From Planctomycetota bacterium (GTDB taxonomy: Bacteria; Planctomycetota; Phycisphaerae; WQYP01): a stretch of 64,000 nucleotides of DNA. The stretch is from the NCBI GenBank assembly GCA_021800165.1, contig JAJYZF010000008.1:1-64000 (forward strand), in the 5' to 3' direction. This document shows, one piece after another, positions 4,383-16,808 of the stretch. The notes below the pieces were generated by a model. It did not search any database and had not been told where the DNA came from. It was given only the letters and a program-made list of their open reading frames with translations. Positions within the stretch are counted from its first letter, which is position 1; every line of letters starts with the position of its first letter. A program made the translations under genes and the position numbers.

Positions 4383-7300
4383 ATGGCTATAAAACTTGAT
4401 GTTGATTTGACGCCGGAGGACGTTTCGCGGCTTACATCCGTGGACGCGCTGGCGGCGTTTTTCCAGCGTCTGGGGTACGACACCGGCAAACGAACCGTTA
4501 TTCCTGCCCAGGCGGTGGGTCTGGATGGGAACAGCGACATACAACATATCGAAATGATTTCGGAGGATGCCGGGCAGTTTCTGCGGGTGGTTTTTGTACG
4601 GCTGCGGTCGGTAACGGCGAAAGCCCGTCATCTGCTGGTGCGAAGCTTTGGCAAGCAGACACAGGATTACCTGCTGGTGCTGGCCAGTGATTTTGAGGCA
4701 CTGGAATTTGTACTTATAGAAAAGGTGCGGCAACCGCGCAAAGGTGCCATCGGGGATGTTCTTATTGCGCCGCAGGCCAAGGTGTTTGTGGTGCCACGGC
4801 GATGGCCGCAGGCGATGTTGCGCATTATCCGCAGGCTTACGTTCACGGCGTTTGATGAGGCGGGTGCTCCGGATGCAATTCTACAATATGCGAAGCTCAT
4901 GAGCGTGTTTGATGCGGCCCATTACAGCGGGGAATATTTCCAGAACCGGGCGTTGTTTGCGGATCATTTTTTGCGTCATCGCCTGCCGGAGGATCCGGCG
5001 TGGAGAGTTTCTCCGAATGAGAGCTTCACGCAGGTGTCGCAGATCATGCATCGGGCGCGGGAGAGCTTTGGTGGCAAGACCGAGGCCATTATCCGACAGG
5101 AGCTTTTTGAGCATGTTTTTGGGATGCTGGGGTTCACACTTGCGCCGGGTTCACAGCCGGGGGTGGCTGGGGCACAGGTTGGGCTTGATGTTAAGCTTGA
5201 TTCACAGCCGAGGGCGGCTGTGCCACAGGTGCCACAAGTGCCACAGACTGGGGCAAAGGCTGGGTCTCATATTGGGCTTGATACACAGCCGAGGGCGGCT
5301 GTGCCACAAGTGCCACAAGTGCCACAGGTTGGGCCACATACAGGGCCACAGGTTGAGTCACAGGTTGGGCTTGATGTTAAGCTTGATTCACAGCCGAGGG
5401 CGGCTGTGCCACAGGTGCCACAAGTGCCACAGACTGGGGCAAAGGCTGGGGAACAGGTTGGGGAACAGGTTGGGCTTGATGTTAAGCTTGATACACAGCC
5501 GAGGGCGGCTGTGCCACATACAGGGCCACAGGTTGAGTCACAGGTTGGGCTTGATGTTAAGCTTGATTCACAGCCGAGGGCGGCTGTGCCACAAGTGCCA
5601 CAAGTGCCACAGGTTGGGGCACAGGCTGGGTCTGATATTGGGCCATGTGCGGATTACGTGTTACTTTCCGGGGAGGGCCAGCGACGCACGGTGGCATTGA
5701 CGTACTGCTGGGAGCGGTGGTTGGATGGGCCGGATCCATCGGATGTCGACGCGCCCGCTGAAAATCCCGGGGCAGCGGTGGTGAGCCTGCTGGAACGCGG
5801 CGATGCGGACTGGGTGGTGGTGAGCAATGGAAAGCTGTGGCGGCTCTACAGCCGCGTTGCCCGTTCGCGCAGTACCAATTTTTACGAGGTGGACCTGGAA
5901 GATGCGTTGCTGGCCACGGGGCAGACGGACCCGAATGAGGCGTTCAGGTACTGGTGGCTGTTTTTCAGGGAGCCGGCGTTTGCGCCGACGGGCGACGGGA
6001 AAACTTGCTGGCTTGATGAGGTGGTCACGGGCAGCCGCGAGTATGCGCGGGAGGTGGAAACAGAGCTCAAACGGCGGGTGTTTTATGAGGTGGTGCCGCA
6101 ATTGGCGGCGGGATTCCTGGAGGACAGGCGCGGACGGCTAAAAATGACGACGGCGCCGGATGAGATTGAGCTGGAACAGATGCGTGAGGGAACGCTGACG
6201 CTGCTGTATCGGATATTGTTTCTGCTGTATGCGGAGAGCCGCGACCTGCTGCCGGTGCGGGAATCAGCCTATTACCAGATTAGTTTGAAGCGGTTGAAGG
6301 AAGAAATATCCCATATAGCCGGGGTGGCGGAAAGCCAGGCGGATGAGAAGATTGCGGCCCATTACAAGCGCGCGGCTACGACCCTTTATGACCGGTTGGG
6401 GGAATTGTTTGCGGTGATGGATGGCGGCGATTTGGAGCGGAATCGGGCGTGCAATGTGCCGGTATATAACGGGGGTCTGTTTCGCGTGCAGCCACAGGAA
6501 GAGGCGGGGAATGTGCGGGAAGCAGGGATTGCGGAATTTTTACTCAAGCACAAGGTTCCGGATGTATTTCTGGCATCCGCATTGGACCGGCTGGCGCGGG
6601 TGCCGGATAACAAGACGTTTGGTTTGGCATTTGTGGATTACAAGAGCCTGGGGGTGAGGCAACTGGGGTCGATTTATGAGGGATTGCTGGAATTTCGGCT
6701 GAGGATTGCGGACAGCGATTTGCCGCCGATTGCGGAAAAGGGGAGAAAGCGGTCCACGGGATTGACAGCAGCGCGCGGGATCAGGGATCGCACGGGAGTG
6801 AGAAAGGGCGAGCCTTACTTAGCCAATGACAATTCGGAGCGCAAGGCGACGGGCAGCTATTACACGCCGGACCACATTGTGCAATACATTGTGGAGCATA
6901 CGGTAGGCCCGGTGCTGGAACGGAAAACGGAGGAATTACGCGTGGGCTTCCGGGCGGCGGAAAAAACGTATCATCAAAAATTGTCCAATGCCAAGGCCGA
7001 CGCGCGGCTGCTGTGGGATTGGAAGCTGCGGCATCAGAGATCGATAGCCAAATCCAAAGTGCCAACGGAAGAAGAATTTCGCGCATACGCGATGGATATG
7101 ACCTATGAGCAGCACCGGGATCTGGTGGAGAAATTGTTTAATCTGCGGGTGCTGGATCCGGCCATGGGCAGCGGCCACTTTCTGGTGGAGGCGGTGGATT
7201 ACATTACCGATGGCCTGTTAAATTTTCTCAACGCATTTCCGGCGAATCCGGTGACGGCGGCGATGGAGCGGATGCGGAAAGACATTCTGGAAAGCCTGCG

Positions 7301-9644
7301 GGATCAGGGGATTGAGACCGATGGGCTGCTGGAAAGACAGCTTACCGATGTGCATTTGATCAAACGGCATGTGCTGAAGCGGTGTATTTACGGGGTGGAT
7401 TTGAACCCGCTGGCGGCGGAGTTGGCGAAGGTTTCGCTGTGGCTGGATGCGTTTACGATTGGGGCTCCGCTGAGTTTTCTGGATCATCATGTGCGGGTGG
7501 GCAATTCGCTGATTGGGGCCACGGTGCCGGAGGTACAGGAGTGGCTGAAGGAACAGGAAACCATGCTGTTTGGCAGCCGATTTGCGGGGTTGAAACTGGC
7601 CACGGCCGGCATGACGGCGATTGCGGCAATGCCGGATGCCACGGCGAGTCAGGTGAAATCATCGCAGTCGCAATTTCGGCAGGCTTCCGGGGCGTTGGCA
7701 CCGTTTAGGCGGATATTGGATGCGTATTTAATGCAATGGTTTGTGCCGAAAGAGTTGCCGACGGCCAAGGGAAAAAACATCGGCAAGACTCTGCTGGATT
7801 TTGTGATTGCGCCGGAAGCAAAAGAATTTTTTGATGCGGCTACGGACCAACAGTTGCGGGCGGCGCTGGCCAAGCTGATTCCAGAGGACCGGCAACTGGC
7901 GGAGGCGATTTTGGCGGTGGCGGTCCAGCGGCGTTTTTTTCATTGGGAGTTGGAATTTCCGGAGGCATTTTATGCCGCGCGGCAGGGCACAGCGCAAGTT
8001 ATTGAACGGATGGAAAATCCGGGGTTTGACGCGGTGGTGGGAAATCCGCCGTACGTAAGGCAAGAGGCGTTGAAGGCAGACAAGGCGTATCTTGCGGGGG
8101 CGTTCGTGCGCACTTTCGACGCCGCCAATGATTTGTATGTGTATTTCATGGAGCGTGAAATAGAGATTCTGCGGAGCGGGGGATTGATGGGAATGATTGT
8201 GGCCAATAAGTGGCTGCGGGCGGGATATGGTTTGAAGGTACGGAATTTTCTGCGGCGTAAGGCGGTGGTTGAAAGCATTGTGGATTTTGGACACAGCCCG
8301 ATATTTCCGGATGCGGATACATTTCCGTGCGTACCGATATTTTCGCGGCGTGACAAGGTGCTTGCACAGGGGGAGGAACTACCGGGAAATGAGACCTTTG
8401 CGGCGTGCATGTTTCCGCGTGATGGCTATCGGGTAGATATGGCGATTGGCCCGTACGTGATGACTCATCGCAGCGTGATTCCCAGTGGGCTGTTGCGGGA
8501 AGCGGGGTGGAGTTTGGAGGATCCGCGCGTACAGCGGCTGCTGGAACGCATCAGGGATACCGGCGTGCCACTGAAGGAATTCTGCGGCGGCAAGCTTTAC
8601 CGCGGTCCGGTGACGGGCTTGAACGAGGCGTTTTTTATTGACGGTGCCACGCGTCAGCGGCTGATTGCGGAGGACAAGCGTTCGGCGGAAATTATTAAGC
8701 CATTGCTGCGCGGGCGGGATATTGATCGGTGGCGGCCACGGGTATCGGATGGGCATATCATATTTGCCCGGCGGGGTATTGAAATTGAGCGTTACCCGGC
8801 CATCAAGCGACACCTGGCCAGGTTTCGCGAGCAGTTGGAACCGCGACCTGCGGATTGGGATGGGGCAAGGAAGGGAGCATGGCCGGGGCGGGCCCCGGGT
8901 GATTATGCGTGGTATGAGCTGCAGGCAAGTCCGGGGGAGGATTTTGCGCGGGCCATGTTTGGCCGGAAGATTCTCTACCAGGAGATACAATTCCACTGCT
9001 GGTTTAGCCTTGAGACGGAGGGCGCATGCATCAATAACAAGGTCTTCATGCTGCCAACCGATGACCCGGCGCTGCTGGGCGTATTGTGCTCGTCGCTGAT
9101 GTGGTGGTTTTTAACGCGCACGCTGCCGCACATGAAGGATGAAGCGCTTTGCCCGGCCGGGTTTGTGATGGAGAATGTTCGGGTCACCACTGGGACCGGG
9201 GGCAAGAGGGAAGAAATTCGGGCTGCGGTGGAGCCATTGCTGCGGCTGTCCGATGAGTTGCACCGCTGGCAGAACGACTTCACGGTCGAAGCCTGTGCGG
9301 CGGTGGGTGCAAAAGGGCCGGATGGCCGCGTTCTAAACTGGCTGCGTGACCCACCGGCGGTATTTTCGGCCCGCCTTACCGGGCTTGGCGGAGGGAGTGG
9401 GTTGTCCGCGGGGTTGGCGGGGAAGCTGGTGGCGCTGCACCAACGGGGGCGGAAACGGTACATGGATTTGCTTTCCAAGCAACTGGAAATGGAGCGGCGT
9501 TTGGCGGTACTGGTGGAGGATGCCTACGGCTTGACGCCTGAGGAGCGGGAGTTGATGCGGGCAACGCGGCCCGTGCGTGATCCGCTGGATGTGCTGGAGG
9601 CGAAGATTGGGGGGAAGATGGACGCCGTTGGGGAAGAGGCCTGA
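4383..9644 (+). CDS. Large Eco57I-type adenine-specific DNA methyltransferase / restriction-modification protein
   Basis: 1753 aa; LDPAMGSGHFLVEAV (SAM-binding motif I), DAVVGNPPYVRQ (motif IV NPPY), C-terminal target-recognition-like region. Confidence 0.85.
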   Translation: MAIKLDVDLTPEDVSRLTSVDALAAFFQRLGYDTGKRTVIPAQAVGLDGNSDIQHIEMISEDAGQFLRVVFVRLRSVTAKARHLLVRSFGKQTQDYLLVLASDFEALEFVLIEKVRQPRKGAIGDVLIAPQAKVFVVPRRWPQAMLRIIRRLTFTAFDEAGAPDAILQYAKLMSVFDAAHYSGEYFQNRALFADHFLRHRLPEDPAWRVSPNESFTQVSQIMHRARESFGGKTEAIIRQELFEHVFGMLGFTLAPGSQPGVAGAQVGLDVKLDSQPRAAVPQVPQVPQTGAKAGSHIGLDTQPRAAVPQVPQVPQVGPHTGPQVESQVGLDVKLDSQPRAAVPQVPQVPQTGAKAGEQVGEQVGLDVKLDTQPRAAVPHTGPQVESQVGLDVKLDSQPRAAVPQVPQVPQVGAQAGSDIGPCADYVLLSGEGQRRTVALTYCWERWLDGPDPSDVDAPAENPGAAVVSLLERGDADWVVVSNGKLWRLYSRVARSRSTNFYEVDLEDALLATGQTDPNEAFRYWWLFFREPAFAPTGDGKTCWLDEVVTGSREYAREVETELKRRVFYEVVPQLAAGFLEDRRGRLKMTTAPDEIELEQMREGTLTLLYRILFLLYAESRDLLPVRESAYYQISLKRLKEEISHIAGVAESQADEKIAAHYKRAATTLYDRLGELFAVMDGGDLERNRACNVPVYNGGLFRVQPQEEAGNVREAGIAEFLLKHKVPDVFLASALDRLARVPDNKTFGLAFVDYKSLGVRQLGSIYEGLLEFRLRIADSDLPPIAEKGRKRSTGLTAARGIRDRTGVRKGEPYLANDNSERKATGSYYTPDHIVQYIVEHTVGPVLERKTEELRVGFRAAEKTYHQKLSNAKADARLLWDWKLRHQRSIAKSKVPTEEEFRAYAMDMTYEQHRDLVEKLFNLRVLDPAMGSGHFLVEAVDYITDGLLNFLNAFPANPVTAAMERMRKDILESLRDQGIETDGLLERQLTDVHLIKRHVLKRCIYGVDLNPLAAELAKVSLWLDAFTIGAPLSFLDHHVRVGNSLIGATVPEVQEWLKEQETMLFGSRFAGLKLATAGMTAIAAMPDATASQVKSSQSQFRQASGALAPFRRILDAYLMQWFVPKELPTAKGKNIGKTLLDFVIAPEAKEFFDAATDQQLRAALAKLIPEDRQLAEAILAVAVQRRFFHWELEFPEAFYAARQGTAQVIERMENPGFDAVVGNPPYVRQEALKADKAYLAGAFVRTFDAANDLYVYFMEREIEILRSGGLMGMIVANKWLRAGYGLKVRNFLRRKAVVESIVDFGHSPIFPDADTFPCVPIFSRRDKVLAQGEELPGNETFAACMFPRDGYRVDMAIGPYVMTHRSVIPSGLLREAGWSLEDPRVQRLLERIRDTGVPLKEFCGGKLYRGPVTGLNEAFFIDGATRQRLIAEDKRSAEIIKPLLRGRDIDRWRPRVSDGHIIFARRGIEIERYPAIKRHLARFREQLEPRPADWDGARKGAWPGRAPGDYAWYELQASPGEDFARAMFGRKILYQEIQFHCWFSLETEGACINNKVFMLPTDDPALLGVLCSSLMWWFLTRTLPHMKDEALCPAGFVMENVRVTTGTGGKREEIRAAVEPLLRLSDELHRWQNDFTVEACAAVGAKGPDGRVLNWLRDPPAVFSARLTGLGGGSGLSAGLAGKLVALHQRGRKRYMDLLSKQLEMERRLAVLVEDAYGLTPEERELMRATRPVRDPLDVLEAKIGGKMDAVGEEA
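5152..5592 (-). repeat. In-frame array of REP-like palindromes (5 perfect, 1 degenerate)
   Basis: CACAGCCGAGGGCGGCTGTGCCAC at 5203-5226, 5284-5307, 5389-5412, 5494-5517, 5569-5592; degenerate copy near 5152; spacers include tandem CCACAAGTG units. Confidence 0.9.
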
Positions 9645-10221: not shown

Positions 10222-10305
10222 GGCGGCGGGGCCGCATCGGTCGAGTTAAGATACTGGGGGAGTTGGGAGAAGGAAATCTATGAACCGATTTGAAGGCAGC
10301 CATGG

Positions 10306-10629
10306 TGGACAAGCAGCGCGAGGCACACCGGCGAAGTGAAGAAGCCGCCATGCACCACCTCGTGGATTAGATTGTATGTGAACTTGGCGTGGCGTATAGG
10401 CCCACCCACCGCTACAATGTGCCTTAGACTTTATGGCACTGCCGTTTACGATTGATAACCAAACTACCTGTGCCGCGGATGCTCTGCGCGAATTGCTGGA
10501 CCATGGCCGGGGTTGCCCGGTGGATATTGCATCGGCCTATTTTTCGATCAGCGGCTGGGAACTTTTAAGTGAGGGTCTGCGGGGAGTTGGGGCGCTGCGG
10601 CTGCTTTTGGGCAGCGAGCCGGGCAGTGG
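10306..10629 (+). repeat. Left copy of a 324-bp direct repeat
   Basis: Aligns to 12457-12780 at constant offset 2151 with about 3 mismatches by eye. Confidence 0.9.
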
Positions 10630-10818: not shown

Positions 10819-12330
10819 GTGCCGAACGTGGTGCCATTAAAAACAGGGGCACGCGCCGGCAAACCAACGGAGACATGCCCCGTGATTGCACAAGAAAATG
10901 GTTTGCTCCCGATTGTAACGCTGGGGGGCGTTGATCCTTGGAATGGGGTCGCACAAGCCGCTTCGCCGCACCTTGACCAACGGGGGTTGAATAAAATCCA
11001 AGGCGCTCTGGGGAACCGCGCTAAGAGCGTGGTTGTTGAGCGACATTACATCGACAAGGACTATCGCGATACGTTCACGAATTTTCACGCTAAGAAATTC
11101 AGCACGCCGGATTCCCGGTGCATTCGGCTTCATTTTTTTGGTGCTCCAGTTAACCACGAGCTCATCCGCGACAACACGGCTGTGCAGCCGCATTTTCTTG
11201 GCTACGTAGTGGTGCGCCCCACCCGGCCAAATTGTATTGGCCGGACCCTTTTGGCTCCGATGGCCTGCGGCGTTACCGATTGCTACCTCAGCCTCTGCAA
11301 GGAGGAGGTGTCGATCCAGGGCACGGTTTTAACGGTGGAGGGATTTCCTTTTATCAGCCAGGATGCCGACGTCACGGCGTGCGCCCAATCCGCATTGTGG
11401 ATGCTGGCTCGGTATTTCAGCAACCGTTATCATGTGTACCCTGAGATTTACCCCTTCCGGTTGACTGCGCTGACGAAAGATTATTCGATCGGGCGCTTAG
11501 TGCCCACGGCCGGACTGTACGTCTGGCAAATGGCAGAGGCCCTCCGCCAGATCGGTTTTTCGCCCGTTATCTACAATCGTCACGAGCATGGCGATACTTT
11601 CGAACATCTTATGTACACGTACGTTGAGTCCGGTATTCCAATCTTGGCCGCCTTCGATAACCATGTTGTGACGCTTTTTGGGCATCGGTCGGCCTTCTCG
11701 GGGCAGCCAGCGCCCCAGACCATGTGTGGCCAGTTCACCTTCTCCTCAGAGTTCAACTGTGCGTTTTTTGGAAATGACGACAACGCCGTTCCCTACCAAA
11801 CGCTTAGCTGCCACGGAAGCATGGCGCGTAATATCGATAAAGTCGAGCGGTTTATTGCAGCCCTGCCGGACCGAGTGTTTTTGCGGGCGGAGGGCTTCCA
11901 AGCCCTCCTGATGCAGGTTCTGCTTGGGCCCGATGTGGGCTTCCAGGCGCTCTCCCCGATCATTTCGCGGCAAAAACCGGTCCTTCGCCTGTTTCTGACC
12001 ACGGGGCGGTCGTTCAAAAAGCGGATCGCGGTTCGCCGCATGGGGAACTCCTTGGTCGCCGATGTGTACCGGAACTTGCCCCTTCCTCATTTTATATGGG
12101 TTTGCGAAATTTCACACGCCGGGCTTTACCCGGCTAAAATAATGGGGGAGGTGATCTGGGATGCCACGCGTAATGCCCACGAGCGCGACGGTTGGATTGC
12201 GGTGCATTACCCCGAGGTGCTCGTTGTCGACGAGGGCGCAGCCTTGAATGAGCCGCAGAACCTTGTAAAATTTTCTCTCGCTTCGGCGTTCGGCTACCCG
12301 ATATTCGAGAATAACCTGAGGAACTTATGA
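10819..12330 (+). CDS. Hypothetical protein with possible papain/C39-like cysteine protease fold
   Basis: 503 aa; QDADVTACAQSALWMLARYF (candidate catalytic Cys), GIPILAAFDNHVVTLFGH (candidate His), FGNDDNAVPY (candidate Asp/Asn). Confidence 0.45.
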   Translation: MPNVVPLKTGARAGKPTETCPVIAQENGLLPIVTLGGVDPWNGVAQAASPHLDQRGLNKIQGALGNRAKSVVVERHYIDKDYRDTFTNFHAKKFSTPDSRCIRLHFFGAPVNHELIRDNTAVQPHFLGYVVVRPTRPNCIGRTLLAPMACGVTDCYLSLCKEEVSIQGTVLTVEGFPFISQDADVTACAQSALWMLARYFSNRYHVYPEIYPFRLTALTKDYSIGRLVPTAGLYVWQMAEALRQIGFSPVIYNRHEHGDTFEHLMYTYVESGIPILAAFDNHVVTLFGHRSAFSGQPAPQTMCGQFTFSSEFNCAFFGNDDNAVPYQTLSCHGSMARNIDKVERFIAALPDRVFLRAEGFQALLMQVLLGPDVGFQALSPIISRQKPVLRLFLTTGRSFKKRIAVRRMGNSLVADVYRNLPLPHFIWVCEISHAGLYPAKIMGEVIWDATRNAHERDGWIAVHYPEVLVVDEGAALNEPQNLVKFSLASAFGYPIFENNLRNL

Positions 12331-12521
12331 ACACGCAGGAACCCCGAAGGCTCGAACTCGTCCCCGGTCAAAACCAGAAGGCCGAGCCTCTCTTCAAGAC
12401 CAAGGAGGCCTACGAAAAATTTTGGGCTGACTTTTACGCGCAGGTAATGCCCATCTTGGACAAGCAGCGCGAGGCACACCGGCGAAGTGAAGAAGCCGCC
12501 ATGCACCACCTCGTGGATTAG
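12327..12521 (+). CDS. Small hypothetical protein, overlaps the preceding stop (ATGA)
   Basis: 64 aa ORF starting in the ATGA overlap with 10819..12330. Confidence 0.5.
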   Translation: MNTQEPRRLELVPGQNQKAEPLFKTKEAYEKFWADFYAQVMPILDKQREAHRRSEEAAMHHLVD

Positions 12522-12780
12522 ATTGTATGTGAACTTGGCGTGGCGTATAGGCCCACCCACCGCTACAATGTGCCTTAGACTTTATGGCACTGCCGTTTAC
12601 GATTGATAACCAAACTACCTGTGCCGCGGATGCTCTGCGCGAATTGCTGGGCCATGGCCAGGGTTGCCCGGTGGATATTGCATCGGCCTATTTTTCGATC
12701 AGCGGCTGGGAACTTTTAAGTGAGGGTCTGCGGGGAGTTGGGGCGCTGCGGCTGCTCTTGGGCAGCGAGCCGGGCAGTGG
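12457..12780 (+). repeat. Right copy of the 324-bp direct repeat
   Basis: See 10306-10629. Confidence 0.9.
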
Positions 12781-15700
12781 GACGGATTTGGGGTTACACG
12801 CCAGCCAACGGCTGCTGGCGGAAATCAATGGCTTGGCCTTCACGGACCGGACGGTGCGGCTGGTGGAAGACCTGATAGCGTTTCTGCGGGTGGAGAAAGT
12901 ACAGGTGCGGCTGTTTCAGGCAGGCTTCCTGCATGCCAAGGCTTATATATTTCATCAGGATCGGGTGGGGCCGGGGAATTATGCGGACCGATTGCGGCCT
13001 TTTGCGGCGATGGTAGGGTCAAGCAATTTTACGGGGCCTGGACTGACGACCAATAAGGAATTGAATCTGGTGCATCGGGTGTTTACCGATGCGGACGAGG
13101 TGGTGGACGCAGAGGCCGCCCGGCGTGTGGAATACCTTTTGCCTGTGTCTGTGGCACAGCCGCCCCCGGCTGTGAGTGAAACCGCAAACATGGCTCCGGC
13201 CAACCTCTGGAAACCGAATTATCGCCGGGATCTGCCGCACCTCCAAGCCACTGGGAGGCCCATTTTTGTGACCTTTCGCACGTCCAAAGGTTTCGTATTG
13301 CCCGAATCGGTGCGGGCACGGGTGCTGGCGCATTGTCGGCATGATGATGGGCAAAAAATTATTTTGCATGCCGCCGTGGTGATGCCCGATCATGTTCATC
13401 TTATTTTCACAGCGCTTCGTGATGCGCATGGTAATACGTATGGTCTGGCCGAAATAATGAACGGAATTAAAGGGGCCTCCGCGCATGGAGTGAACAAGGC
13501 GCTGGGACGACATGGCCAGGTCTGGCAGGATGAATCGTTCGACCATATATTGCGCAGCCATGAGAGCCTTGGGGATACCATCCATTACATCCGGGAGAAT
13601 CCTGTCCGCAAGGGGCTAGTGGCACCAGGCCAGGATTACCCGTGGTTGTGGGTGCAAGGCAGGGTGGAGACAGGTGGGGAAACAGGTGAGGGCATGGGTA
13701 CGGACACAGCCGAGGGTACAGCTAAAAGCACAGCTAAGGACACAGGGAAGGACACAGCCGAGGGTACAGCTAAAGGCACAGTTAAGGACACAGCCGAGGG
13801 CGGCTGTGCCACAAATGCCACAGGTGCCACAGGGGACACAAATGCCACAGGTGGCACGGTGGCTTGGTCGGCTCGCCGGGCCATTAAAAGCGAGGTGGGT
13901 GCCCGTGCGGTGATGGAATTGGAACAGTGGTTTGACCGCAACTGGCAAATATCCAGTGATTTTAAGCAACAGTTGATTGACCTGCTCAATAAGAGCAAAT
14001 TCGGGCAACATGAATATACACCGTACCAAGTGTATTTGAAGGCGCTTTTTGAATATTTGAAGGACCAGGTGGGCGGCGGAGACCCGCTGCTTTGGGGGCG
14101 ATCGGCTATTGACCTGGCGGAATTTCAGGAGGATTCGGTTAAACGGGCGCGGCGGATTTTGCAGCGGTATGACGGGGTGTTGATAGCGGATAGTGTGGGA
14201 CTGGGGAAAACGTGGATCGGGAAAAAGCTGCTGGAGGGTTATGCGTATCATCAGCGGATGAAGGCGCTGGTGGTCTGCCCGGCGAGCTTGCGGCCCATGT
14301 GGCAACGGGAGTTGGCGGAATCCACCATTGCCGCGGGGGTTTTGGGAATGGAGGAAATGGGGCGGGATGATTTCGATGCGGCCCGGTATGCGGACGCGGA
14401 CGTTATTCTGGTGGATGAATCGCATAATTTTCGCAGCAGCACGGCCAACCGCTATCTGGCATTGGATGATTTAATTCAGAGGCGCGGCGGACGCGGACGG
14501 GAGGGGGCGAGGAAGAAAATTATTTTGATTTCCGCGACGCCGATCAACAATGATTTGTATGATTTGTTGAATCAGATACGGCTTTTTACGCAAAATGAGC
14601 CGGATTATTTTCAGGAGGCGGGCATCAGCGATATTGACGCCTATTTTCGGCAGGCGCGGCGGAAGGCACGGGACGGAGGGGCGGCGGCGGGGGAATTGCT
14701 GTTTAATCTGCTCGACGAAATTGTGGTGCGGAATACACGGCCTTATATTCGGGCGGCCTATCCGAATGCGACCATCGGAGGGGAGCCGGTGCGGTTTCCG
14801 AATCGGCAGCTCAATACTGTTGAGTACAGCCTGGAGGCGGTTTACGGCGGAGTTTATAAACAGATTGTGGAGCAGGTGGAGGGGCTGTCTTTTGCGCCGT
14901 ATCAATTGGAATCTTATAAACAGCCGCAGGCGACGGTGGATAAATTTGAAATGGGCCGGGAAGAGGGATTGGTGGGGATATCCAAGGTGCGGTTTTTGAA
15001 ACGGCTGGAAAGCAGTATTGCGGCCTTTCGACTAAGCGTGCAGCGGGCGTTGGTGTTTGAGCAGGCGTATCTGGATTTTCTGTTGACCCGACGGGTGATA
15101 GGGAGCGGCGATTTCTGGAAGATGTTGCGCGTGGCCGGACTGGATGGCGAGGATGAGCTGGGGGCAAGCGCCTTGGCGGAGAAACTGGAAAGCACGGAGG
15201 CGGTGAAGGAATATCTGGCGGGTGTGAAGCCGGTGGACTTAAACCTGTATGATCTTCGCCGTTTGGTGCATGACCTGGAGCGGGATATAGCGGCCTTGAA
15301 AAAGCTGCACGTCGAAACGGAGCCGCTGGCGACGCATGACGCGAAGCTGGCAAAACTAAAGGAATTGCTGGCCGGGCCATTGCGGGGGCGGAAAGTGCTT
15401 ATTTTCACCGGCTACAAGGATACATCCCGGTATTTGTTTGCGGCGCTGGCGCAGAGGGATGCGGAGTGGCTGGAAATGATGGGCAGGCCGCACATCAGGC
15501 GGATAGACAGCGGCAACAGTCCGGACGAACGCACGGGGATTGTGGCGGCGTTTGCACCGAAGGCGATGGGTGGTCTGCCGAAGGGAATTGCCCCGATTGA
15601 CATACTTATTTCCACAGATGTGCTAAGCGAGGGGCAGAACCTGCAGGATTGCGGAATCCTGATTAACTATGACCTGACCTGGAACCCTGTGCGGTTGGTG

Positions 15701-16630
15701 CAACGCAGCGGGCGCATTGACCGGCTGCGTAGCGGGCATGAGCAGATTCAGGTTTGGAATGTATTTCCAGAAAAGGAACTGGAAGAGCTGCTGCACATTC
15801 TGGAGCGGTTGCAGGACCGCATCGGACAGATTGATGGGTTGGGAATGTTGGATGCGAGCGTCTTGGGCGAAGTGGTGCATCCGCGGACGTTTAACACCAT
15901 TCGGCGGATTGCCAATGGGGATGTCACGGTTCTGGATGAAGAAGAGGGGCGAGCGGAATTGGCGGGGCCGGAGGTGTTGCTCAAGCAACTTAAGGAGATG
16001 CTGGGCAAGGAAGGCTCACGGGAGGTGGTTCAACTGCCGGATGGGATACATTCGGGTCTGCGGCGGCAGCGGGTGCATGGAATGTTCTTTTATTTCAGGG
16101 CCAAGCGGCCGCAGGGTGAGGGGGTTCGGCATTTTTGGCGTTACATTGATGCGAAAAGCCATGTGGTGACGGACAACCGTTTTGAAATTGCCCAGCTTAT
16201 TTCGTGCCGCCTGGACGAGCGGCGGTACATCGGCGATCAGGATGTTTTCGATTTGCAGGAGCGGGTAATCCAGAGCATTTTAGGGGAAGAAGGCACGGCG
16301 ACGGTAAGGTCAAAAATAGGCGCGGTGCCGGACCAGGTGCAAATTGGATTGGCGGAGGACTTGAAGGCAGCGTTGCGACGCGGGACGGTGGAGCGGGGAG
16401 GGGCCAAACAGGCGATTCAATTTTTGGGGCAACCGGCGGGTAAGGCGATTTTAGAGCAACTGCGGAAGGTGCGGGCGGACTATGCGGAACATCAAGACGA
16501 CCAGCGATTGGCGGCGGAATTGGTGGGGATGGCGCAGGAATATTTGAAAACGGATGAGGATAAAACCGGACTGGAACAGGCAAGGCGAGAGGATTTGCAA
16601 CTGGTTTGTTTTGAATATGTTTCGAGTTAG
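12584..16630 (+). CDS. PLD-like nuclease / SNF2-type (HepA-like) helicase with an in-frame RAYT insertion
   Basis: N-terminal PLD-like motif HAKAYIF...GSSNFT; Walker A DSVGLGKTWIGKK, DESH box VDESHNFRS, SATPINN, STDVLSEGQNLQ...QRSGRIDRLRS. Confidence 0.88.
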   Translation: MALPFTIDNQTTCAADALRELLGHGQGCPVDIASAYFSISGWELLSEGLRGVGALRLLLGSEPGSGTDLGLHASQRLLAEINGLAFTDRTVRLVEDLIAFLRVEKVQVRLFQAGFLHAKAYIFHQDRVGPGNYADRLRPFAAMVGSSNFTGPGLTTNKELNLVHRVFTDADEVVDAEAARRVEYLLPVSVAQPPPAVSETANMAPANLWKPNYRRDLPHLQATGRPIFVTFRTSKGFVLPESVRARVLAHCRHDDGQKIILHAAVVMPDHVHLIFTALRDAHGNTYGLAEIMNGIKGASAHGVNKALGRHGQVWQDESFDHILRSHESLGDTIHYIRENPVRKGLVAPGQDYPWLWVQGRVETGGETGEGMGTDTAEGTAKSTAKDTGKDTAEGTAKGTVKDTAEGGCATNATGATGDTNATGGTVAWSARRAIKSEVGARAVMELEQWFDRNWQISSDFKQQLIDLLNKSKFGQHEYTPYQVYLKALFEYLKDQVGGGDPLLWGRSAIDLAEFQEDSVKRARRILQRYDGVLIADSVGLGKTWIGKKLLEGYAYHQRMKALVVCPASLRPMWQRELAESTIAAGVLGMEEMGRDDFDAARYADADVILVDESHNFRSSTANRYLALDDLIQRRGGRGREGARKKIILISATPINNDLYDLLNQIRLFTQNEPDYFQEAGISDIDAYFRQARRKARDGGAAAGELLFNLLDEIVVRNTRPYIRAAYPNATIGGEPVRFPNRQLNTVEYSLEAVYGGVYKQIVEQVEGLSFAPYQLESYKQPQATVDKFEMGREEGLVGISKVRFLKRLESSIAAFRLSVQRALVFEQAYLDFLLTRRVIGSGDFWKMLRVAGLDGEDELGASALAEKLESTEAVKEYLAGVKPVDLNLYDLRRLVHDLERDIAALKKLHVETEPLATHDAKLAKLKELLAGPLRGRKVLIFTGYKDTSRYLFAALAQRDAEWLEMMGRPHIRRIDSGNSPDERTGIVAAFAPKAMGGLPKGIAPIDILISTDVLSEGQNLQDCGILINYDLTWNPVRLVQRSGRIDRLRSGHEQIQVWNVFPEKELEELLHILERLQDRIGQIDGLGMLDASVLGEVVHPRTFNTIRRIANGDVTVLDEEEGRAELAGPEVLLKQLKEMLGKEGSREVVQLPDGIHSGLRRQRVHGMFFYFRAKRPQGEGVRHFWRYIDAKSHVVTDNRFEIAQLISCRLDERRYIGDQDVFDLQERVIQSILGEEGTATVRSKIGAVPDQVQIGLAEDLKAALRRGTVERGGAKQAIQFLGQPAGKAILEQLRKVRADYAEHQDDQRLAAELVGMAQEYLKTDEDKTGLEQARREDLQLVCFEYVSS
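13151..13174 (+). repeat. REP palindrome, left flank of RAYT
   Basis: GTGG-CACAGCCG-CCCC-CGGCTGTG, perfect 8-bp stem. Confidence 0.85.
13190..13690 (+). mobile_element. REP-associated tyrosine transposase (RAYT, Y1/TnpA_REP) domain embedded in the helicase ORF
   Basis: GRPIFVTFRT, VMPDHVHLIF (HUH), HGQVWQDESFDHILRS, IHYIRENPVRKGLV (catalytic Tyr region); own in-frame ATG at 13190; end coordinate approximate. Confidence 0.88.
13789..13812 (-). repeat. REP palindrome, right flank of RAYT, inverted relative to the left one
   Basis: CACAGCCG-AGGG-CGGCTGTG-CCAC on + strand; degenerate half-copies precede it at 13700-13788. Confidence 0.85.
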
Positions 16631-16808
16631 TGCCAGGGGGATGAGAAGGAAAAATAAATGGTAATGGGAGGCACCGATGGGCGCGGGGCGATGGGGGCAG
16701 TGCCTGGAATCTGGTGCGATTTTGGGCATGGCGCGGGCGGAGTACGCCGGGGCGAAATCCCGAAAGTCTGCGGGACCGGGCTGACGAGGAGGGGGCGTGG
16801 AACTCGCA

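Follow-up and report, generated by a model that had tools for sequence, protein, structure and literature searches.

The window analysed here, a stretch of 64,000 nucleotides of DNA from a Planctomycetota bacterium, contains an open reading frame (ORF) of 1348 amino acids (12584..16630, + strand) in which a REP-associated tyrosine transposase (RAYT) lies, complete and in frame, inside a PLD-SNF2 helicase. We consider it likely, with a probability of roughly 0.7, that this is a REP-RAYT-REP unit (REPtron) residing as an in-frame guest in a protein-coding gene, and that it represents one case of a widespread lifestyle. The facts of the sequence are strong: the insert has no stop codon in the host frame, the host is continuous on both of its sides, the same site is empty in a relative, and the catalytic residues are kept. 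As judged from sequence, sister RAYTs occupy other genes in the same manner, including the only copy of essential ones. We infer that the insert would be translated through, that it has the status of a guest, and that such units may home.

The host was identified with Pfam, PADLOC, NCBIfam and an uninserted orthologue. Pfam recognizes, in this order, PLDc_2 (aa 101-164; 12884..13075, + strand), Y1_Tnp (aa 256-337), SNF2-rel_dom and Helicase_C, and the host resumes behind the insert, according to Pfam and the orthologue alignment, with a linker helix and the SNF2 and Helicase_C motor (13871..16627, + strand). The PADLOC match of the ORF is HKD+Snf2. Its domain order is common to the PLD-SNF2 defence helicases (HKD+Snf2, DrmD and NF042964) and, as in these, an Eco57I-type methylase is found in the gene neighbourhood; the host missed the NCBIfam equivalog cut-offs of DISARM DrmD (152.7 of 610 bits) and NF042964 (98 of 1100 bits), and the uninserted orthologue likewise fell under both. 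A 300-nt direct repeat, 99% identical, is located at 10300-10599 and 12451-12750 of the window. The copy 2.15 kb upstream repeats the 5′ end of the helicase gene and the sequence that precedes it, and the two repeats bracket a 503-aa ORF (10819-12330) with no match in Pfam or NCBIfam.

Counted from an internal in-frame ATG, the RAYT extends over 13190..13660 (+ strand) and is supported by a profile match at 13241-13645 and by its predicted fold. It scored 77.2 bits against NCBIfam REP_Tyr_transpos (aa 220-354; cut-off 80) when the whole ORF was scanned, and 82.3 bits, which is over the cut-off, in the genome search. The HUH motif, H270-V271-H272 (13391..13399, + strand), and a catalytic-type tyrosine, Y335 in YIRENP (13586..13588, + strand), are both present, and the corresponding residues are kept in all 87 of the in-ORF RAYTs that we aligned, some of which were collected with scan patterns that might select for the HUH motif, though not for the tyrosine. 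In E. coli TnpAREP, the catalytic tyrosine is Y115 (PMC8266576). No stop codon or frameshift occurs across the 1348 codons, and the claim of a preliminary description that a complete RAYT is embedded in frame in the helicase is confirmed. The same description gave the RAYT an in-frame ATG of its own at 13190; the ATG is indeed there, as codon 203, but lacks a Shine-Dalgarno-like motif upstream. The window unit thus shares with RAYT/TnpAREP an HUH motif and catalytic tyrosine in a Y1 fold (H270, H272 and Y335), as well as two flanking REPs in inverted orientation, but differs from such separate genes with their own start and stop in that no stop follows the RAYT in the host frame.

RAYTs have been described as ORFs that are always flanked by two inverted REPs (Nunvar 2010, PMC2817692). 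The left REP in the window (13151-13174, + strand) consists of a GTGG foot and a CACAGCCG-CCCC-CGGCTGTG hairpin and encodes part of VAQPPPAVS, while the right REP (13789-13812, - strand) is inverted relative to it. The two arms, at 13150-13174 and 13789-13813, are 96% complementary, and each REP, folded as single-stranded DNA, is predicted to form an 8-bp stem with a 4-nt loop beside the GTGG foot. The inverted palindromes reported earlier around the RAYT are therefore borne out, as GTGG-footed hairpins on both sides. In total, the window has 8 copies of the REP motif with up to 3 mismatches, compared with 0 expected from shuffles, and 6 of the 7 exact copies in the genome lie within it. An array of six REP copies (one of them degenerate) is located in frame, and with no RAYT, in the Eco57I-type methylase ORF 4383-9644 (5152..5592, - strand), where the REPs encode repeats such as DSQPRAAVPQVPQVPQ. 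Behind the RAYT, 12-nt and 9-nt tandem repeats (13682..13862, + strand), all of them multiples of 3 nt, encode a low-complexity linker (TAEGTAKD.., ATGATGD..) that is predicted to be disordered.

The empty site is seen in an orthologue from a related genome of the same family (L071:1515-4862; G026:C155), which is 84% identical to the window helicase over aligned columns. It reads ...EYL-RTKPAGEVVPAQ-ARRAIKNEVGAR... across the site, and we therefore place the insert at ~aa 186-429 (13139..13870, + strand), where it replaces the 12-residue linker RTKPAGEVVPAQ of the orthologue with ~244 residues. The difference in linker length implies that a REP-RAYT unit entered between the PLD and SNF2 parts without breaking the frame, which supports the preliminary description both on this point and on the short linker that it expected in uninserted homologues; loss of the unit from G026 would be the less likely direction. 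Nor do all homologues carry the domain, an outcome that would have made it ancestral to the helicase, given that G026 has no RAYT. On the two sides of the insert, dN/dS of the window helicase against G026 is 0.13 and 0.07; by this comparison, both flanks are under purifying selection, although this does not date the insertion and much of it may predate it.

The window insertion is known from a single assembly, and one explanation confined to the window is that the helicase is a recent, dying pseudogene carrying a RAYT, or that the join is an assembly error. A 99% identical 300-nt direct repeat of the 5′ end of the gene lies 2.15 kb upstream, and in a second orthologue (L072, G024:C215) the gene breaks off immediately behind aa 187, adjoining the insert point of the window, with the remainder of the gene not found in genome G024. 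We nevertheless regard this as the least probable of the explanations that we weighed, as the 1348 codons are free of stops and frameshifts, both junctions fall in the linker and are in frame, the REPs have their canonical inverted arrangement, the dN/dS values are low even if much of that signal may be older than the insertion, and the same layout is found in other assemblies, some of them single-contig genomes.

Five matches were returned by a RAYT search of the source genome, and our counts for this genome rest on such searches. Besides that of the window, two of these RAYTs are in frame in long ORFs, encoding a PglX-like methylase (1428 aa) and a DUF1156 methylase (1478 aa). In addition, we noted a 355-aa RAYT ORF (L004/L008, G000:C113) that follows the C-terminal part of a DUF1156 methylase without a gap, its start lying in an ATGA overlap. 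The preliminary description had presented the helicase as a singular case concerning a defence protein. This did not hold in either respect, with two more restriction-modification (R-M) genes affected in the same genome and housekeeping genes, some of them essential, affected elsewhere. Our own first idea, based on the three long cases of the source genome, was that the pattern is special to defence genes; it was ruled out by the survey of the class.

For this survey, 298 genomes of the class (by inference, Phycisphaerae) were searched with a profile built from these RAYTs. Among the RAYT-type matches listed, 64 of 109 lay in open frames no shorter than 600 aa (600-1650 aa), whereas nearly all of the best-scoring canonical RAYTs listed were of stand-alone size. 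The matches in shorter frames corresponded to contig edges, to smaller hosts (RdgB, EtfB) or to C-terminal fusions (ThiE). We took 60 loci, grouped their hosts and then checked these with curated profiles. In the class, IleRS (ileS), ValRS (valS), LeuRS (leuS), PurH and GcvP exceeded the curated cut-offs, and YoaA/DinG gave a clear match below its cut-off. ThrRS, AlaRS, RecG, IspG, MetH and PriA were over the cut-offs in a scan of named genomes, mostly Verrucomicrobiota. Further hosts (RarA, RdgB, EtfB and an MmeI-like methylase) were below the NCBIfam cut-offs or assigned by Pfam. Several loci differ in their architecture. In three genomes of one family, a RAYT is fused in frame to the C-terminus of ThiE, thiamine phosphate synthase (L291, L293, L296); in an IleRS (L148:3367-8301), the in-frame RAYT is preceded by a long tandem array of a 14-aa unit (GSIGVPPVSSAQSP-like); and unusually long ValRS frames of 1561-1651 aa in L302 (G094:C4), G232:C102 and G183:C2, which have no RAYT among the matches listed, possibly hold REP arrays only.

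Some of these hosts are the only copy of an essential gene. Six genomes with a RAYT in their ValRS were checked (G263, G119, G124, G287, G228 and G294), of which G263 is a single contig, and in each the sole valS over the cut-off was the RAYT-bearing gene. In a PurH survey of 130 genomes, a long insert splits 8 of 129 genes, and each of the eight insert-bearing genomes has one PurH. All eight inserts are in one frame, which, if frame were irrelevant, would have a chance of ~(1/3)^8, an estimate and not a formal test. Five of the eight are RAYT matches of the class-wide profile search. In the other three (L315, L316 and L317, in G029, G061 and G138), the insert encodes a different, more distantly related Y1 protein, which has an HUH motif, reads YVCEQ/YVCAQ where RAYTs have Y..NP, and scores only weakly against the RAYT profile; it resembles class 3 (Y----Q) of Quentin 2018, which is mainly found in Planctomycetes (PMC6006769). 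Two kinds of Y1 enzyme therefore seem to have entered the same region of PurH.

Structure prediction points to a RAYT that folds on its own within its hosts. In the model of the window protein (mean pLDDT 58.1), the RAYT (~aa 221-360) forms a block with pLDDT 82-98, joined on both sides by segments that are mostly <45, and the best solved Foldseek match of this block is the RAYT 4ER8. Outside the RAYT the model is poor, and we therefore draw nothing from it about the helicase. In a PurH-RAYT model, both parts are well predicted (mean pLDDT 82.4) and are connected by two disordered linkers. The insert of PurH maps between residues 268 and 276 of 3ZZM, and that at one ValRS site between residues 204 and 210 of 1GAX. 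From these two models, one of the window and one of PurH, the RAYT is predicted to fold into a globular unit of its own, held by disordered linkers that the REPs encode.

A flank test of 200 distinct RAYT loci revealed no broken housekeeping host and only two out-of-frame loci, L213 (DUF1156) and L262 (PglX, a contig fragment), both in dispensable defence genes, although the test is partly self-fulfilling and the in-frame rate partly ascertained, because most host queries were drawn from long frames. Within 25 codons of the RAYT, an ATG with a Shine-Dalgarno-like motif was found in 0 of 81 in-ORF RAYTs, and 60 of the 81 have no ATG at all in this interval; ATG is scarcer in in-ORF than in stand-alone RAYTs (Fisher p=0.0016). 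That essential single-copy hosts tolerate inserts of 250-450 aa, at recurrent conserved sites resembling those of inteins, could alternatively mean that the insert is an intron- or intein-like element carrying a RAYT and is removed before or after translation, leaving a normal mature host. We think this very improbable: no Rfam match was obtained up to E=0.5 in 12400-16800, so that known intron RNA structures were not encountered in the gene, and no intein Hint/splicing domain appeared in the Pfam scan of the window ORF. Moreover, RNA splicing would need neither a strict frame nor a stop-free insert, and the tandem units of the linker come in multiples of 3 nt.

In a tree built from 169 RAYTs, those with the same host gene and site tend to group together, and changes of the host label (3 for 12 PurH rows, 2 for 8 LeuRS rows) are far below those of shuffled labels. 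The nearest relative of the window RAYT is one that resides in GcvP (69% over 120 columns). Between two genomes, fourfold sites of PglX are identical at 69/80 positions in the RAYT versus 179/351 in the host flanks (p=1.8e-9), and in one ValRS pair at 59/73 versus 116/258 (p=3.2e-8); in both cases, the stretch of high identity coincides with the RAYT. No such island of identity is seen at most other host sites. Synonymous sites are saturated at most of the host sites, so that the comparison of host and RAYT is informative only for PglX and the one ValRS pair. The islands suggest homing-like horizontal replacement at some sites, although ordinary recombination of the host region could also be their source.

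The PglX-like family also bears on whether hosts have recruited the RAYT as a working domain, with its HUH nuclease adding single-strand DNA cleavage to R-M, defence and other proteins. In this family, five genomes have the RAYT at the same site, dN/dS is 0.16-0.26, the catalytic residues are intact, and the number of repeat peptides beside the RAYT varies. Such a case, together with conserved sites elsewhere, would fit a useful domain, as would the fact that all three long cases of the source genome are R-M or defence genes. We nonetheless consider recruitment unlikely. RAYTs of this type also reside in tRNA synthetases, PurH, GcvP, MetH and IspG, which have no evident role for a DNA nuclease; they are missing from close orthologues of both the helicase and PglX (in the latter, from G016); and the PglX RAYT is, by the sequence comparison above, younger than its host gene. 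As for the window helicase, its RAYT is probably a guest that takes no part in the helicase's own function.

We therefore return to the reading of an in-frame guest, and envisage that the RAYT would be made as part of the host protein, its own start having mostly been lost. As a single-strand HUH/Tyr enzyme, it would act on REP hairpins and disperse REPs into coding sequence close by; movement of the whole unit would be less frequent. At some sites it may pass between orthologous hosts in the fashion of inteins, with nothing spliced out. Residence in a needed gene would provide both expression and protection from loss, because only an in-frame deletion is tolerated there. More tentatively, and a little short of even odds, these cases may form a widespread class of mobile elements that use translation instead of splicing, namely REPtrons that are open in the host frame, insert by homing at recurrent positions in essential genes and are retained there as guest domains, unspliced and catalytically intact.

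Inteins are in-frame guests that occupy recurrent sites in essential genes, show signs of horizontal spread and carry a DNA-cutting enzyme. RAYT units are alike in all of these respects, but the Pfam scan of the window ORF showed no intein domain, and the guest is an HUH/Tyr transposase that seems to remain part of the protein. Inteins home into one site across orthologous genes; the identity islands of PglX and one ValRS pair, which most other sites lack, may be a counterpart of this. With known REPtrons (PMC2817692, PMC6006769), the units share a Y1 HUH transposase, two inverted REPs, a GT[AG]G-type foot and an intact HUH motif and tyrosine; they differ in that known REPtrons have been described as separate genes, whereas here the RAYT is internal to a host ORF that often has a housekeeping role. 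REPs lying in frame within genes, including those of tRNA synthetases, have been reported before (Di Nocera 2013, PMC3733652). These REPs and the Rickettsia palindromic elements (PMC3733652, PMC1950309) resemble our cases in being palindromes translated within functional genes, with hosts that include tRNA synthetases and DNA repair genes and with positions that are probably loops or linkers. They are, however, short (~20-82 aa, PMC3733652) and have no transposase, whereas here a whole RAYT lies inside; instead of the CGTC tag of the Rickettsia elements, the in-frame palindromes here have a GTGG foot. In-frame REP peptides are thus already known. The literature that we searched, mostly outside subscription journals, contained no account of RAYTs resident in frame in essential genes.

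If this reading is true, some lineages have a complete transposase domain within essential bacterial enzymes, tRNA synthetases and PurH among them, and guests can live like inteins without protein splicing. A previous classification left out "unexpectedly long proteins", taking them for fusions or errors of annotation (Quentin 2018, PMC6006769), and long RAYT proteins set aside in this way may be real. RAYTs behave more like housekeeping than transposase genes (PMC8266576), and in-frame residence offers a testable answer to how they persist despite this behaviour. Finally, the recurrent insert sites would map where essential enzymes accept large domains.
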